Below are positions 14,443 through 20,950 of a stretch of 25,148 bases of DNA, in pieces. Position numbers and translations under genes: made by a program. The DNA is taken from positions 1 to 25,148 of the IMG/VR virus record IMGVR_UViG_3300020200_000163; one strand, written 5' to 3'. Below the pieces are notes generated by a model. It did no database searches. It saw only the letters and a list, made by a program, of their open reading frames with translations, and was not told the DNA's origin. Origin of the DNA: a virus. Position 1 is the first letter of the stretch. Every line of letters starts with the position of its first letter.

Positions 14443-15888
14443 TTATTCTATTATTAACGGTTCTTCTTTAAAAACAACTCTTGTTTTACTAATCACTGTA
14501 TAATCTTTGTTATCAAATATTAATGTTTTTGATTTACTTGAGAACGCAATTTTATCTACAGATTTTTTTGTTGTGTAATCTCTCATACCATAAGTACTAA
14601 CACTGTAAAGACCATCGTTAACAATAAACCCCTTTAATGGTTTAATTTGGTAATTAACACCATCAATTGTAACGTCAACACCTAACCACCTATCCATCTT
14701 AGAACCATGAGGATAATAAATGATATTAGAAGACCCAACCTTGTCTAAAAAGTTATTAACAGACATTTTTTCCAATTCTAAACCATTTTTTATGGAGCTC
14801 CATTGTCTATCAACTAACATTTGTGTGTATTCTTCATTTTTAAATAAATCGGACATCCATTCGATGATATCGTTAATATTTTTTCCTGATTTTATATCGT
14901 CAAAATATTTTAAGTAAATTAAACTATGTATTTCATCTTTAGTATCAAAATAATTCATAATTGACCAATCCTCTTCAGAGTTCCCCATTTTTTCACCTAT
15001 AGTGTACACACCTCTTAAACCTGGAGTATATAAACTATCTCCTTTATTCCAATTATCAGGAAAGGCCATTTCTAAAGACTGTCTTACGTTTGACGGAGTA
15101 ATCCCAATTGAAGAGGATAATTTAGAATGATTAGTCATACTAAAATTAGGATTTAAACTATCCATAGTTGATTTACTAATAAAGGCAACCCCCTCATCTT
15201 GATTTATAGTAATATCTTCTTTATTAAATTCAAAATCACCATCGCTACCATACATCTTAATTTTGTTAGGTATTGGTGAGCCATCAACAACGGGAACTAT
15301 CTTATTAAAATAATACCTTTTGGTGTTGAACTTTTCAAAAAGACCCATTGTCAAATATGTGTATTTTGTTGGTTGTTCTTCTTCAGATTCTTTAATTATT
15401 TTCGATTTGATTTCATTAATTACAAAAATTTTATTTTTATGATTAATCATATCGACCTCTTTCGCTTTATATACAGGTTCTTTACTATTTTTATAAACAA
15501 ACGAATCGTATTTGTATGGGTCGTATGTAATTACTTTATCCGATTTTTCATCGGGTATTTTATTACAAGGAAACTCACAATAATCTTCTAATTTACCAAT
15601 TACAAAAGCATGAACATTTTTTCTTTTTTCATTTCTAACTTTTTCTTTACCACCTCCTCGAACTCTAAACTCAACATCTTTAAGTTTAACGTAATCGGCG
15701 TGTAAAATAACTTTAGATTTATATGTAACAGAAAATGTATGTTTGTGTAAATTATAATAAACCATTACGTTTTTACCGATATAATCTTCTTCAGAATTGT
15801 TATGACCACATTTATCACAAGTAACCTTACCTGAATTAACTCTTTCAAGTAATTTTAATATTTGAGTTTCTGTTAGTACTATTTTCAT
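14443..15888 (-). CDS. Nuclease-like protein with N-terminal Zn-site and KNVHAFV-type domain
   Basis: This 481-residue protein starts with a helical tag (KIVLTETQILKLLER), then CDKCGHNN (C24, C27). Residues about 41-103 carry YYNLHKHTFSV, VILHADYVKLKDVEFRV and RKNVHAFVIGKL, a pattern I recognise as a small phage/bacterial domain of unknown function; C104 and C108 follow. Residues about 255-470 match the C-terminal module of the superoxide dismutase fusion at 18266-19804: AFPDNW, GLRGVYTIGE and SIMNYFDT, then GVDVTIDGVNYQIKPL and LIFDNKDYTV. The D405, Q414 and K416 triad resembles a PD-(D/E)XK nuclease core in its Q-x-K form. The ATG overlaps the upstream stop (ATGA) and the gene lies between neck and tail-completion genes, so a virion-associated or DNA-end-handling role is possible. 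No activity can be assigned with certainty. Confidence 0.6.
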   Translation of the reverse strand: MKIVLTETQILKLLERVNSGKVTCDKCGHNNSEEDYIGKNVMVYYNLHKHTFSVTYKSKVILHADYVKLKDVEFRVRGGGKEKVRNEKRKNVHAFVIGKLEDYCEFPCNKIPDEKSDKVITYDPYKYDSFVYKNSKEPVYKAKEVDMINHKNKIFVINEIKSKIIKESEEEQPTKYTYLTMGLFEKFNTKRYYFNKIVPVVDGSPIPNKIKMYGSDGDFEFNKEDITINQDEGVAFISKSTMDSLNPNFSMTNHSKLSSSIGITPSNVRQSLEMAFPDNWNKGDSLYTPGLRGVYTIGEKMGNSEEDWSIMNYFDTKDEIHSLIYLKYFDDIKSGKNINDIIEWMSDLFKNEEYTQMLVDRQWSSIKNGLELEKMSVNNFLDKVGSSNIIYYPHGSKMDRWLGVDVTIDGVNYQIKPLKGFIVNDGLYSVSTYGMRDYTTKKSVDKIAFSSKSKTLIFDNKDYTVISKTRVVFKEEPLIIE

Positions 15889-16440: not shown

Positions 16441-18222
16441 ATGTCAATAGATAAAGTAATAACAGGTAACACCTCATCATTAATTGAGATGAGGGCTTTA
16501 GAAATTCTTGGTAACTACTTAGGGAGTAATAATTTTATATTAAATTTAAAACATAAAAAAGAAAATAATAAAAAGTTTTACCCCACCCGTTCCCAATCGG
16601 ATTACATTATAAATTTTCATGAGACACAACCCAAAGTGGCAAAAAAATGGGTTGAGTTGGACCCGTATTTTGCGAAAAAAATTGCTGATGAAAAACTTTA
16701 TACCACAATACCTGAACAAGTTTGGGTTGAGAAATTATTAACTGAAAAAGAAAAATCATATCATATTTGGGGTAAGGTATTTGAAACGGAATCTTTGCAC
16801 GATTTTTGGTTACCAAAAGGAGCGATAATGAAAACTCATAAAGTAGAAAAAGTAGAGATTGATTATTCTAAATATTCTCATAGACCTCTATTATCACACC
16901 AAATTCCTGCAGTCGAAAAACTTGCGGGTTCAAAAAGATTTATCTTAGCGGATGATATGGGTTTAGGTAAAACAACCGCAACAATAGTTGCCGCTTTAGA
17001 GACTAAAGCTAAACGAATACTAATTGTATGTCCCGCATCATTAAAAATAAATTGGCAACGAGAGATTGCAAATTATACTGATAGGTCAGTTTATATTGCG
17101 GAAAGTAAAAATTTCTCTTTAGAACATGATTTTGTAATTGTTAATTACGATATTCTTAGAAATTTTTATGATACAGGTAAAGAAAAAGAAAACACTTTGA
17201 TTTACCAATTTAATCCCGATTTGGTTATAATTGACGAAGCCCATTACATCCAAAATGGTCAGGCACAACGAACCAAATTAGTGAATAGTTTTAGTAAAAG
17301 GGCGGAAAGATTATGGTTACTTACTGGTACACCTATGACCTCAAGACCGATGAATTATTTTAACTTATTAAATTTAATTGAAAGTCCTGTAGCTCAGAAT
17401 TGGATGGCTTACGCAATCAGATATTGTCAAGGGTATCAGTTTAAAGCAGGTAATCGTAAAGTTTGGAACGTTACGGGAGCATCTAATTTAGAAGAATTAA
17501 GAGATAGAACCTCAAGACAAGTTTTGAGGAGATTAAAGACTGAGGTCTTAGATTTACCTGATAAAATCATTACACCTGTTTACTTAAGATTAAAATCAAA
17601 ACATTACGAAGGTTTAATGGGGGAATATTATGATTGGTATGATAATAAAAAAGAAGAATCTAATTCACTAACTGTTCAATTTTCTAAACTTATGAAAGTC
17701 AGACAAGTAATTGCTGAAGAGAAAATAAAAAATACTATAGAATTAGCTCAAAATATTTTAGACCAAGATAAAAAGGTAATAATTTTTACAAATTTCACCG
17801 ACACATTAAATAAAATTGCCGACCATTTTGGAAAACAAGCGGTTAGATTAGACGGTAGTACAAGTAAACCACAAAGACAATATGCGGTCGACCAATTCCA
17901 AGAGAACGAAAAAATAAAAGTTTTTGTTGGGAACTTAAAAGCCGCAGGAGTTGGGTTAACCTTAACTGCGGGTGAGGCGGTTATTATGAACGACTTATCA
18001 TTTGTTCCATCTGACCACTCACAAGCCGAAGATAGGGCTTATAGATACGGTCAAAAATCAAATGTATCCGTTTATTATCCAATATTTGAGAATACTATTG
18101 AGGGGATTATTTATGATATCTTAGCAAATAAGAAAAATATTTTTGAAACCGTCATGGGGGACAATTTGGATAAGGCCGATGTTGTTGAGGAAATGATGAA
18201 TAGAATTAACAGTTTGAGATAA
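16441..18222 (+). CDS. SNF2-family (SMARCAL1/HepA-like) DNA helicase or translocase
   Basis: This 593-residue superfamily 2 ATPase has Walker A ADDMGLGKTTA (170-180), motif Ia ILIVCPASL, Walker B IIDEAHYIQN (263-272) and motif III LLTGTPM (293-299). The second RecA-like half carries VIIFTNFTDTL, GNLKAAGVGLTLT and AEDRAYRYGQ (arginine finger, near 528-537). The DEAH box with GLGKT and RAYRYGQ identifies the SNF2 group, close to single-polypeptide remodellers such as SMARCAL1, rather than UvsW of T4. The first ~145 residues precede the helicase core and are not recognised. It probably remodels forks or recombination intermediates, or displaces proteins from DNA. It is first in a plus-strand block, and 43 nt separate it from the superoxide dismutase fusion. 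Confidence 0.88.
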   Translation: MSIDKVITGNTSSLIEMRALEILGNYLGSNNFILNLKHKKENNKKFYPTRSQSDYIINFHETQPKVAKKWVELDPYFAKKIADEKLYTTIPEQVWVEKLLTEKEKSYHIWGKVFETESLHDFWLPKGAIMKTHKVEKVEIDYSKYSHRPLLSHQIPAVEKLAGSKRFILADDMGLGKTTATIVAALETKAKRILIVCPASLKINWQREIANYTDRSVYIAESKNFSLEHDFVIVNYDILRNFYDTGKEKENTLIYQFNPDLVIIDEAHYIQNGQAQRTKLVNSFSKRAERLWLLTGTPMTSRPMNYFNLLNLIESPVAQNWMAYAIRYCQGYQFKAGNRKVWNVTGASNLEELRDRTSRQVLRRLKTEVLDLPDKIITPVYLRLKSKHYEGLMGEYYDWYDNKKEESNSLTVQFSKLMKVRQVIAEEKIKNTIELAQNILDQDKKVIIFTNFTDTLNKIADHFGKQAVRLDGSTSKPQRQYAVDQFQENEKIKVFVGNLKAAGVGLTLTAGEAVIMNDLSFVPSDHSQAEDRAYRYGQKSNVSVYYPIFENTIEGIIYDILANKKNIFETVMGDNLDKADVVEEMMNRINSLR

Positions 18223-18265: not shown

Positions 18266-19804
18266 ATGAAAAAATTTGAAAATAAGATTAAGATTTTAAA
18301 TAAATCGTTAATCTTACAAGAACAAAAGGAAAATGAAAAGTTCTTTTTGTTTGAAATGAAAAAAATAGGTATTGAGAAGTTACCTTATTCTTACTCCGCA
18401 CTAAAACAATTTATTGATTCCGAAACCATGTCATACCATTATAATAAACATTATAAGGGTTATGTAGACAAACTTAATAAAGCATTGTCCAAGAAAAAAG
18501 GAGGTGATTTAGAGTTAGAGGAAATTATTAAAACTATCAGTAAATTTGATAAAACAATTAGAAATAACGCTGGTGGTGCATTTAATCACGCATTGTTTTG
18601 GAAAATGTTATCACCTAAAACTCAAAAACCTTTTGGAGATGTTTTGAATCGGATTAATAAAGACTTTGGTTCGTATAAAAAATTCCAATCTAAATTTGAA
18701 GAAATAGCGAAAGAAAGATTTGGTTCAGGATGGGTTTGGTTAGTTCTAAATAATAAAAACACTTTAAAAATTATATCAACACCAAACCAAGATAATCCAT
18801 TAATGAATGTCGTACAAGACGGAGGATTTCCTATTTTAGGTCTTGATTTATGGGAACACGCTTATTATTTAAAATATAGAAATAAAAGAGATGAATATAT
18901 TAAAAACTTTTGGAAATCTGTAAATTGGGAGTTTGTAAATAAGTTATTTAATTCTAAATCGACATCAAAATTAAATGAATCGGTAGGGTTTAGACAAATA
19001 ATAAAAGAAGGTGTTTCTGAGAAATGTAGTAAAGAGATGAACGATGCTATCAGATTTGTATTTAACATTAATCCTAAAGTTAAAACAACCTATCGGTATG
19101 CCATTGACTCAATTTTAAAAGACGTATTTCCCGATAATTATTATGGTCAAAATGGGTACAAAGAAGGTGAGATGTCAGGTATATATGATTTAGAAGGGAG
19201 TGGTAGGTCAGTGATTAATAAACTTAACACCAATTATAATTGTTTTTGTATTTTATTAACTGATGTTAATAAAGTTTTAAAATCAATGAATAAACCTGAA
19301 ATAAAAATTATAGGTCAACCACCATACGTCCAAATAAGTGAAACTAAAAAATTTGTAAGATTTTTAAATGATTATAAATCAAGAATATTTAATCAAAATT
19401 CAGGAACGTTCAAAAATTTAATGTCGACTTTAGGATTGACACATGACTTAGGTGATAAGAGGGAAGATTATACTGTAGAAGTTCTTGAAAAGAAATTTGG
19501 TGAGGAAAATATCGAAAGGATTGGTGGTTTAGGTAGTCAAGAAGACATGATTGGGGGTGTTGATTGTAAAGTAAACGTCAATGGAGAAACCAAAACTTCA
19601 CAAATTAAACCTTTTAGTTATATAAAAACCGATAACGGGAATATAACAGTTTTTAATACAGGACAAGTTAAGAAATATGATACTGATTGGATTATATTCG
19701 CAAATCCTAAAAAAGGTATATTAATTTTTAATAATAAAGATTCTAAAATAGTTGAGGGTAACTATACCTTCCCGATTGAGAATTTAATTTATGAAGTAAG
19801 TTGA
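18266..19804 (+). CDS. Mn-type superoxide dismutase fused to a nuclease-like module
   Basis: This is a 512-residue fusion. Residues about 38-230 form a complete Fe/Mn superoxide dismutase: LPYSYSALKQFIDSETMSYH, NNAGGAFNHALFWKMLSP, RFGSGWVWLVL, STPNQDNPLM and LGLDLWEHAYYLKYRNKR. Metal ligands H58, H108, D194 and H198 are present, as are gateway residues H62 and Y66. G104 plus Q175 is the Mn-type rather than Fe-type arrangement. After a linker with LNESVGFRQIIKEGVSE, residues about 255-510 match the C-terminal module of the protein at 14443-15888 (VFPDNY, EMSGIYDLEG, SVINKLNT, GGVDCKVNVNG, SQIKPF, ILIFNNKDSKI). D433, Q446 and K448 resemble a PD-(D/E)XK nuclease core. The first ~37 residues are a charged extension. 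Superoxide removal is likely if the protein folds as its homologues do; the role of the C-terminal module is unknown. Confidence 0.8.
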   Translation: MKKFENKIKILNKSLILQEQKENEKFFLFEMKKIGIEKLPYSYSALKQFIDSETMSYHYNKHYKGYVDKLNKALSKKKGGDLELEEIIKTISKFDKTIRNNAGGAFNHALFWKMLSPKTQKPFGDVLNRINKDFGSYKKFQSKFEEIAKERFGSGWVWLVLNNKNTLKIISTPNQDNPLMNVVQDGGFPILGLDLWEHAYYLKYRNKRDEYIKNFWKSVNWEFVNKLFNSKSTSKLNESVGFRQIIKEGVSEKCSKEMNDAIRFVFNINPKVKTTYRYAIDSILKDVFPDNYYGQNGYKEGEMSGIYDLEGSGRSVINKLNTNYNCFCILLTDVNKVLKSMNKPEIKIIGQPPYVQISETKKFVRFLNDYKSRIFNQNSGTFKNLMSTLGLTHDLGDKREDYTVEVLEKKFGEENIERIGGLGSQEDMIGGVDCKVNVNGETKTSQIKPFSYIKTDNGNITVFNTGQVKKYDTDWIIFANPKKGILIFNNKDSKIVEGNYTFPIENLIYEVS

Positions 19805-19825: not shown

Positions 19826-20950
19826 ATGTCAATTATCGCAGAACCAGAAAGAACTCAACTATATACTAAATTGAGACATACATTAGGAGCACCTCTTAGG
19901 TCGGTTGAGTTAGAAGATGAACAACTAGATTCAATTTTAGAATTATCTATTGAGGATTATTCTCAATATGTTCAAGATTGGTTAATCGAATCTCAATGGA
20001 CTTCGTTATATAATCTTAATCTTGATACTCAGTCATTATCAAGGGCTTTTATTACAAAAAGTTTAGATTATGAAGAAAGATATACTTACGCATATTCTAA
20101 AATTGTTGGTTTGCAAGCGGGTGGTGATTATGTACTTAAAAAAGATTTTTTTAATCTCGAAAGAGGTAAACAAATATATGAAATACCAGCGGGTAGAGAA
20201 ATTAATGAATTATTATGGTTTACCCCGACCCCAATGAACAACCTTTTATTTGACCCATGGTCTTTTGGTACTTTAGGTGGTGGAGGTATCGGAGGTCAGG
20301 GAGGATTCGCCCAAATGGGGAATATGGGAGGAAGTTACTTTATGATGCCAGCTTTTGATATGTTACTTAGAATGCAACAAATAAACATACAAAGAAGAAT
20401 TATTGGTGGTGATTTAACTTATCGAATTACCGCATTACCCGAAGGTAAAAAGGCGATTCATTTAATGAATGTTCCTGGGGGTAAATTTGATTTTGGTAGC
20501 GGGTCTTTAAGGAAAGGTCAGGTATGGTATTGGTATTATGATGTTGGCACTTCAGATAGGGATAAGTGTCTTAAAGATAATCCTGATATTATTAAGTTAC
20601 CGTCAGATGTTCCGTTTGATAAAATTTCTTGGGTGGATTTAAATAACCCCGCACAAATTTGGGTTCGTAGATATTTCTTTGCGTCGGCTAAAGAAGCCTT
20701 GTCTAAAGTTAGAGGTAAATTTAGTGGTAATATAAAAACACCTGATAGTGAATTAACTATGGACTATCAATCATTAGCGACTGAAGGTAAAGATGAAAAA
20801 ACAAAATTGATTGAGGAATTAGTAGGTGCGGAAGGTCGACTTACAAGATTAAGACCTGAAAAAGTTATGGAAAGAGAAGCGTTATTAGCGGAAAATCTAA
20901 ACAAACAAAAGAAATTTACCGCGATGCCAAGACAAATATACGTAATATAA
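19826..20950 (+). CDS. Neck / head completion protein (gp13-like)
   Basis: This 374-residue protein has an N-terminal helical segment LRHTLGAPLRSVELEDEQLD, then SILELSIEDYSQYVQDWLIE. This is the adaptor-type start (a short alpha domain followed by 'gap-x-x-VELtDeQ') seen in gp13-like head completion proteins. A beta-rich part follows (YVLKKDFFNLERGKQIYEIP), then a Gly/Met-rich loop near 150-175 and a C-terminal helical region with many charged residues. T4 gp13 (309 residues) binds the portal after DNA packaging and receives the tail. The gene is on the opposite strand from the other neck and tail genes, which is unusual given that 13 and 14 are adjacent in T4. The Gly-rich loop is an insertion. 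The assignment comes from pattern and synteny. Confidence 0.55.
   Translation: MSIIAEPERTQLYTKLRHTLGAPLRSVELEDEQLDSILELSIEDYSQYVQDWLIESQWTSLYNLNLDTQSLSRAFITKSLDYEERYTYAYSKIVGLQAGGDYVLKKDFFNLERGKQIYEIPAGREINELLWFTPTPMNNLLFDPWSFGTLGGGGIGGQGGFAQMGNMGGSYFMMPAFDMLLRMQQINIQRRIIGGDLTYRITALPEGKKAIHLMNVPGGKFDFGSGSLRKGQVWYWYYDVGTSDRDKCLKDNPDIIKLPSDVPFDKISWVDLNNPAQIWVRRYFFASAKEALSKVRGKFSGNIKTPDSELTMDYQSLATEGKDEKTKLIEELVGAEGRLTRLRPEKVMEREALLAENLNKQKKFTAMPRQIYVI

Follow-up and report, generated by a model that had tools for sequence, protein, structure and literature searches.

A Mn-type superoxide dismutase joined to a nuclease-like module, with putative prohead-protease sites at the domain borders, in T4-like phages from environmental DNA

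The DNA analyzed here (the window) is a stretch of 25,148 nucleotides, positions 1 to 25,148 of the IMG/VR virus record IMGVR_UViG_3300020200_000163. Between the genes for a SNF2/UvsW-like helicase and a neck or head-tail adaptor-like protein, it holds a single reading frame of 512 aa, uninterrupted between its ATG and its stop codon, in which a Mn-type superoxide dismutase (SOD; about residues 31–232) is followed in frame by a C-terminal module of about 260 residues (Table 1). A divergent copy of the same module is encoded in a second protein on the opposite strand.

Table 1. Features of the window and examples of related proteins. Positions refer to the window unless a related locus (L) is named; a bar within a motif marks the predicted cut.
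Feature	Position	Strand	Basis
Second protein with divergent module copy; tag MKIVLTETQ..., Phage_L5_gp82 domain, IIKE|S border	14443..15888	-	hhalign, Pfam, HMM
SNF2/UvsW-like helicase bordering the exchange locus upstream	16441..18222	+	domain searches, locus comparison
SOD-module fusion ORF, 512 aa, stop included	18266..19804	+	ORF list, IMG/VR relatives
N-terminal helical stretch, residues 1–30, predicted propeptide or capsid-targeting peptide; ends in [LIVM]xE (E30), 68/68	18266..18355	+	alignment, model; function predicted
Mn-type SOD domain, residues 31–232; ligands H58, H108, D194, H198	18356..18961	+	Pfam, PDB match, alignments, model
Codon of E238; LNE|S at the SOD end as predicted prohead-protease site; [LIVM]xE 68/68	18977..18979	+	cleavage predicted
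10-residue spacer 239–248 with a predicted second site at its last residue, E248 (IKE|G), 67/68	18980..19009	+	function predicted
Helical first part of the C-terminal module, residues 251–391; conserved GRSxxNxxNTN	19016..19438	+	alignment, model
PD-(D/E)xK nuclease-like domain, residues 392–512; invariant E400, D433, Q446-x-K448	19439..19801	+	alignment, model, fold search
Neck / head-tail adaptor-like protein bordering the exchange locus downstream	19826..20950	+	PHROG 211, 1.6e-9
HEW[VI]H-SOD proteins, examples	L148 1855-3978; L184 1870-3969; L208 1838-3970		
Three-part proteins: SOD, diverged QVKP module, third domain	L150 1243-3978; L155 672-3422; L163 1249-3978		

A first, sequence-only reading of this DNA had described the N-terminal half as a complete SOD of the Mn type whose active site is intact, and database searches bear this out. 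The metal ligands H58, H108, D194, and H198, the gateway pair H62 and Y66, and Q175 stand at the positions it gave and are unchanged in all 68 distinct fusion proteins of the family (see below); their roles, like those of the second-sphere Gln and the interface Glu/Tyr, are presumably the same as in E. coli MnSOD, from which they were assigned. Both Pfam families lie above their curated cut-offs (Sod_Fe_N, PF00081, residues 36–116, 3.9e-23; Sod_Fe_C, PF02777, residues 124–226, 2.4e-40), the closest solved relatives are Mn-SODs with 1gv3_A as top PDB sequence match (6.6e-59), and the NCBIfam Mn-SOD model matches at 2.4e-59, yet under its equivalog cut-off. The modelled domain superposes on 6gsc_A at 1.6 Å (TM 0.93 on the target). 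Among 83 distinct phage SOD domains, which include SODs from other architectures, ten active-site and interface residues (ligands, gateway His/Tyr, Gln, and Glu/Tyr) are unchanged throughout. Median dN/dS, taken over 82 moderately diverged pairs and over fewer for the linker and the N-terminal peptide, is lowest in the SOD (0.045) and rises through the module (about 0.07) and the linker (0.135) to the N-terminal peptide (0.23). The SOD looks intact and is predicted to bind metal and dismute superoxide.

The second half had been read as a nuclease-like module of about 255 residues ending in GGVDCKV and SQIKPF; it is indeed joined in frame, although the two motifs lie within it and not at its end. 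No Pfam, PHROG, or NCBIfam family matches the module above cut-off. Modelled alone with 68 sequences, it reaches a pLDDT of 92.6, and the model of residues 392–512 is closest to the Holliday junction resolvase Hjc (2wcw_D; Z 8.4 over 103 aa, 3.4 Å), followed by the homing endonuclease I-Ssp6803I (2ost_A, Z 7.4), NhoI (7.4), and DpnI (6.2), values of 7–8 being common in such searches, so that a Z near 8 is modest. Foldseek likewise returned I-Ssp6803I as best match to the module (E 2.8e-3, probability 1.00) and none at 1e-3 or better. All top 20 rows of the fold search are nucleases, which we take to form one superfamily, PD-(D/E)xK. Residues E400, D433, Q446, and K448 are unchanged in 68/68 distinct fusions; in the model, E400 lies within a long helix, D433 before a core strand, and Q446 and K448 on core strands, presumably where this superfamily keeps its active site. 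QxK variants of PD-(D/E)xK nucleases can be active. With nucleases at the top of the search and the invariant residues in place, the term "nuclease-like" is therefore supported by the predicted fold as well as by individual residues. A scan of cellular genomes with residues 234–512 matched 27 stretches, none of which encodes a relative, and the single match to the module in annotated phages (E 0.4) is not significant.

At least 594 stretches in IMG/VR encode a relative of the fusion, of which the best 80 were retained. All 80 hold the SOD and the module in one frame, as the sequence-only reading had proposed for this DNA, and the case that it named as refuting, an assembly error with two separate genes, is contradicted by the same count; a few of these loci match only from query residue 10–25 onward, and one (L039) reaches its contig end. 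Related phages in which one of the two is missing show absence or exchange of whole domains and no stop codon dividing the halves. Together with the window, the 80 loci yield the 68 distinct fusion proteins, which are 52–79 % identical to that of the window. Their contigs reach 322 kb and in part include head genes of the T4 type. A separate contig (L138) has a neck protein 100 % identical to the window's and the same linker. In the annotated phage collection, no record covers 80 % of the fusion protein and there is no close relative, nor was any virion proteomics, cultured member, or protease assay for the family found among annotated phages. Judged by these comparisons, the fusion is old and common among its phages, and its carriers would constitute a T4-like family of bacterial viruses, represented here by environmental DNA alone.

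In a tree with midpoint rooting only, the 83 phage SODs are split by a long branch (support 99) from 80 cellular SODs, the best matches among 236 that encode a relative; when the long branch of PA5oct and the Vibrio phage is included, the phage group requires two changes instead of one. These cellular SODs derive mostly from Bacteroidota, with identities of up to 53 %. A host among the Bacteroidota is only a guess, because the Por_Secre_tail matches in two large relatives (G001 and G002) fall under the cut-off. Large tailed phages outside the family also carry SOD homologues, namely the Pseudomonas phages PA5oct and MIJ3 and Vibrio phage 2.275.O; these are free-standing and about 30 % identical. 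The PA5oct record EST35_0261 bears the note ESI-MS/MS, which is also found on FtsH, a ligase, and metabolic enzymes of this phage and hence lends weak support. The free-standing SOD-like protein of Vibrio phage 2.275.O (L219, 2968-3537) has a tail with LDE|S and then a hydrophobic stretch, as in the fusion linker. SOD genes 41–49 % identical to that of the window occur in further GenBank records labelled as phages (OR850395, OR846937, OR845917, OR851122, and others), which may be host DNA.

The locus between the helicase and neck genes is variable in content. Among 79 loci fetched by their neck protein, with contents called by HMM at 1e-3, the fusion is present in 37, a SOD without the module in 30, and the module without a SOD in 11, while one (L152) has neither. 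Two of the 37 (L162, 2849-3970; L181, 1981-3012) have a shortened module in proteins of 373 and 343 aa, the nuclease half seemingly being absent by length; L181 is in addition truncated on the N-side. Where a SOD occurs without the module, it may follow a HEW[VI]H domain, stand alone, or belong to a three-part protein of about 910 aa; some of these proteins contain, as recognized by eye, a diverged form of the module in which the motif is QVKP. The HEW[VI]H domain is metallopeptidase-like, about 130 aa long, precedes the SOD in 14 distinct proteins, and ends in [MVI][YF]E|[GSNE]; in the five proteins scanned (L148, L184, L201, L208, and L212), Pfam returned nothing above cut-off for it, nor did it for the partner domains of ten locus and related-module proteins. 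In 10 of the 11 module-only loci, a start peptide comparable to that of the fusion is followed by LSE|S and then directly by the module, as though everything from the first to the last site, the SOD included, had been removed; the remaining protein (L209) begins with a shorter stretch and carries LTE|K. It appears from these arrangements that two or more unrelated domains are combined per protein and exchanged among relatives, the partners being putative enzymes.

What the architectures share are the sequences at their borders. In the alignment of the 68 fusions, the pattern [LIVM]xE is found at E30 and E238 in 68/68, at E248 in 67/68 (L002 lacks this third site), and at E197, which we take to be the SOD active-site Glu, in 67–68 of 68; the next-best place is E359 with 57/68. 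E30, E238, and E248 mark the SOD start, the SOD end, and the module start, respectively, and even the narrower form [LI]xE holds in 66, 64, and 67 of the 68. The residue after E238 and E248 is one of [SGATNQ] in >95 %, and many neighbors of the sites vary freely, LNE|S being the commonest form of the linker (22/68); after E30, the residue is mostly M (60/68) and not small. The AF2 model of the fusion drops below pLDDT 50 (over stretches of at least three residues) only at residues 23–32 and 234–248. The borders persist when the partner changes: before the SOD, [LIVM]xE is followed by [MA]K in all 48 distinct proteins with that side intact, including 24/24 with partners other than the module, and within 30 aa after the SOD, [LIVM]xE followed by [SGANTQD] occurs in 45 of 47 distinct proteins compared with 382 of 3504 30-aa windows elsewhere in the same proteins (10.9 %), counts to be read with the shortness of the motif and the non-independence of related sequences in mind. 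The two exceptions (L180 and L200) have LRE|M. The five distinct SOD-alone proteins carry ILE|S together with TNE|S in four cases and INE|S in the fifth.

These borders resemble the sites of the T4 prohead protease and may accordingly be regarded as putative cut sites. T4 gp21 and the head proteases of giant phages cut after a Glu that follows a short motif, the processing of the T4 IPIII targeting peptide is governed by its residues 8 and 10, and a T4 targeting peptide has been used to package foreign proteins, nucleases included (sections of PMC9026906). Among ten large relatives searched, whose records may be fragments, an S77 prohead protease exceeds the cut-off in three (G001, G002, and G008) and a Gp23 capsid protein in five; the window, a short record of 25 kb, contains no S77 protease. 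In the capsid proteins of the same three relatives, LINE|A aligns to E65|A66 of T4 gp23, the propeptide of which comprises 65 residues (PMC5694885, in part). To judge by sequence, the linker LNE|S of the fusion is the same kind of site as the capsid LINE|A.

The second module-bearing protein of the window carries its copy in the C-terminal part (hhalign 96.6 %, 7e-10; hmmsearch 3.7e-7), and its Phage_L5_gp82 domain is matched by Pfam at 3e-28. In G002, a tagged related module sits between protease, scaffold-like, and capsid genes, while none was seen in the head cluster of G001. A search of 10 records for second copies found one extra module (G002) and undercounts, because it missed an HMM-found copy (L012) in one record. 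As an expression for the tag, M, 1–12 residues, and then [IL][ST]E at the ORF start was used, chosen after viewing the window and slot proteins; in the two 322-kb relatives G001 and G002 it matches 30/324 and 35/314 ORFs (9–11 %) as compared with 2.3 % and 2.1 % internally (binomial p ∼1e-10 and 2e-15), the ORFs being mechanically chosen ones of at least 80 aa and not curated genes, and some matches looking accidental. A tag-like sequence also occurs inside three three-part proteins (L150, L155, and L163) at the last domain border. Both large relatives furthermore have series of small ORFs that begin with MK..ITE and may encode many small proteins for packaging. No paper in the open-licence literature matched the letters of the tag.

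The conserved border sites, the exchange of domains, and the related module in a neighboring protein point to a separation of the two halves during head assembly. We regard it as on balance probable that the fusion is a head-packaged, protease-processed polyprotein that delivers SOD and nuclease with the phage DNA. Speaking against this reading are the shortness of the motif, the Met that mostly follows E30, the deviating sites of L002, L180, L200, L209, and the SOD-alone proteins, the S77 protease in only three of ten relatives, and a related module in the head cluster of G002 but not of G001. The gene product would be a polyprotein of the virion, in a T4-like phage of the jumbo type, with residues 1–30, and perhaps also the spacer 239–248, targeting it to the prohead core like T4 capsid-targeting sequences. 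A T4-gp21-type (S77) prohead protease would cut after E30, E238, and E248 and thereby set free an active Mn-SOD and the PD-(D/E)xK nuclease within the head, both of which would then be injected together with the DNA. The SOD may clear superoxide in the newly infected cell or protect the packaged DNA, and the nuclease might attack host or competing DNA. Only tentatively do we extend this to a tailed phage head that carries an active Mn-SOD injected with a nuclease, in which cassettes (SOD, PD-(D/E)xK nuclease, metallopeptidase, and other domains) are swapped at prohead-protease sites and the N-terminal tag serves as the group's general head-targeting signal.

A different scenario, which we consider unlikely but worth weighing, is an uncleaved bifunctional enzyme acting in the infected cell, with the SOD lowering oxidative stress, the nuclease degrading host DNA or processing phage DNA, and the linker as a tether. 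Retention of the fusion in 80/80 kept loci, the conserved residues of both halves, and the adjoining UvsW-like helicase gene would fit, as would the free SOD-like genes of PA5oct, MIJ3, and Vibrio phage 2.275.O, which lie amid metabolic and chaperone-type genes in the stretches viewed. However, a mere tether needs neither an invariant E238 nor a near-invariant E248 amid variable neighbors, the border before the SOD is the same in 48/48 proteins whatever the partner, and each part also occurs alone. The joint action suggested by the sequence-only reading, superoxide removal together with action on DNA, is plausible; if they are separated, the halves need not form one bifunctional enzyme.

Less probable still is a virion protein that is not injected, its SOD shielding packaged DNA in the head or neck and its nuclease fold trimming ends or being structural. 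The position of the gene directly upstream of the neck/adaptor-like gene and the intact-looking SOD are compatible with such a role, but the locus swaps the SOD, or joins it, with metallopeptidase-like and other domains, as would be expected of host-directed cargo, and one of the 79 loci (L152) does without both SOD and module. That the SOD is non-catalytic and serves assembly or attachment merely as a stable dimer, a variant of which the sequence-only reading had also entertained, is very unlikely: in an alignment, the homologues of PA5oct and Vibrio phage 2.275 indeed lack equivalents of gateway His62, Gln175, and Tyr201, but within the SOD family of the fusion the ten residues kept in 83/83 and the dN/dS of 0.045 speak against it. 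A chimeric assembly or host contamination is hardly credible, for although several annotated "phage" SOD records may, judged by their names, be host DNA, the 80/80 loci, the contigs of up to 322 kb with T4-like head genes in some, and the long branch (support 99) between the 83 phage and 80 cellular SODs argue to the contrary.

Several known systems come close to the proposed head-packaged polyprotein. Like the T4 internal proteins (IPI–III and Alt; sections of PMC9026906 and PMC5694885), the fusion has a short N-terminal peptide and a processing site made of a motif and then Glu, predicted in its case; T4 and the relatives of the fusion share an S77-family protease and a Gp23-type capsid protein, and in both the cargo varies among related phages. 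Those sections describe no SOD among the T4 internal proteins, however, and the fusion, known from sequence alone, differs in stringing together two to three domains with sites between them. Polyvalent proteins are likewise multidomain, with unrelated activities and interchangeable domains including metallopeptidases, and are thought to enter the host with the DNA; their release has been proposed to proceed via embedded zincin-like peptidases (PMC5512222, in part), whereas the predicted cutter of the fusion is the head protease. The word "superoxide" is absent from the main text of PMC5512222. The same pair of cargoes is found by another route in the chlorovirus PBCV-1, a eukaryotic virus whose virion contains a SOD of the Cu/Zn type and packaged restriction endonucleases as separate proteins; superoxide is lower than in infection by a relative lacking the SOD gene, a difference that the authors connect with the SOD, and degradation of host DNA begins within 5 min, presumably by the packaged enzymes (sections of PMC7019647). 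The SOD-like proteins of PA5oct, MIJ3, and Vibrio phage 2.275.O share with the fusion the Fe/Mn type and the setting in large tailed phages, but are free-standing.

The view of the sequence-only reading that no described protein has this architecture agrees with the open-licence papers listed for phage SODs, among which no phage SOD fusion appeared, some of them treating bacterial and giant-virus SODs; "superoxide" is also absent from the text of a 2026 jumbo-phage review and of the MIJ3 paper. Among deposited sequences, the BFVD entry A0A6J5L953 (uncultured Caudovirales phage, "superoxide dismutase", 501 aa) is 40 % identical to the module over 256 columns, with a TM of 0.94 on the query, and, from its name and length, apparently has the same architecture. 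New with respect to the known kinds would be the cargo and the predicted use of a head protease between enzyme domains; membership among the T4 internal or polyvalent proteins would require packaging and injection, both of which are predicted here. Should the head-packaged polyprotein prove true, it would mean that phages, like a chlorovirus, equip their heads with an enzyme against oxidants, and it would point to superoxide as a problem for a phage in the first minutes of infection. Because the domain borders and the N-terminal tag can be recognized from sequence, phage genes that are at present unannotated would then become a readable list of cargo.
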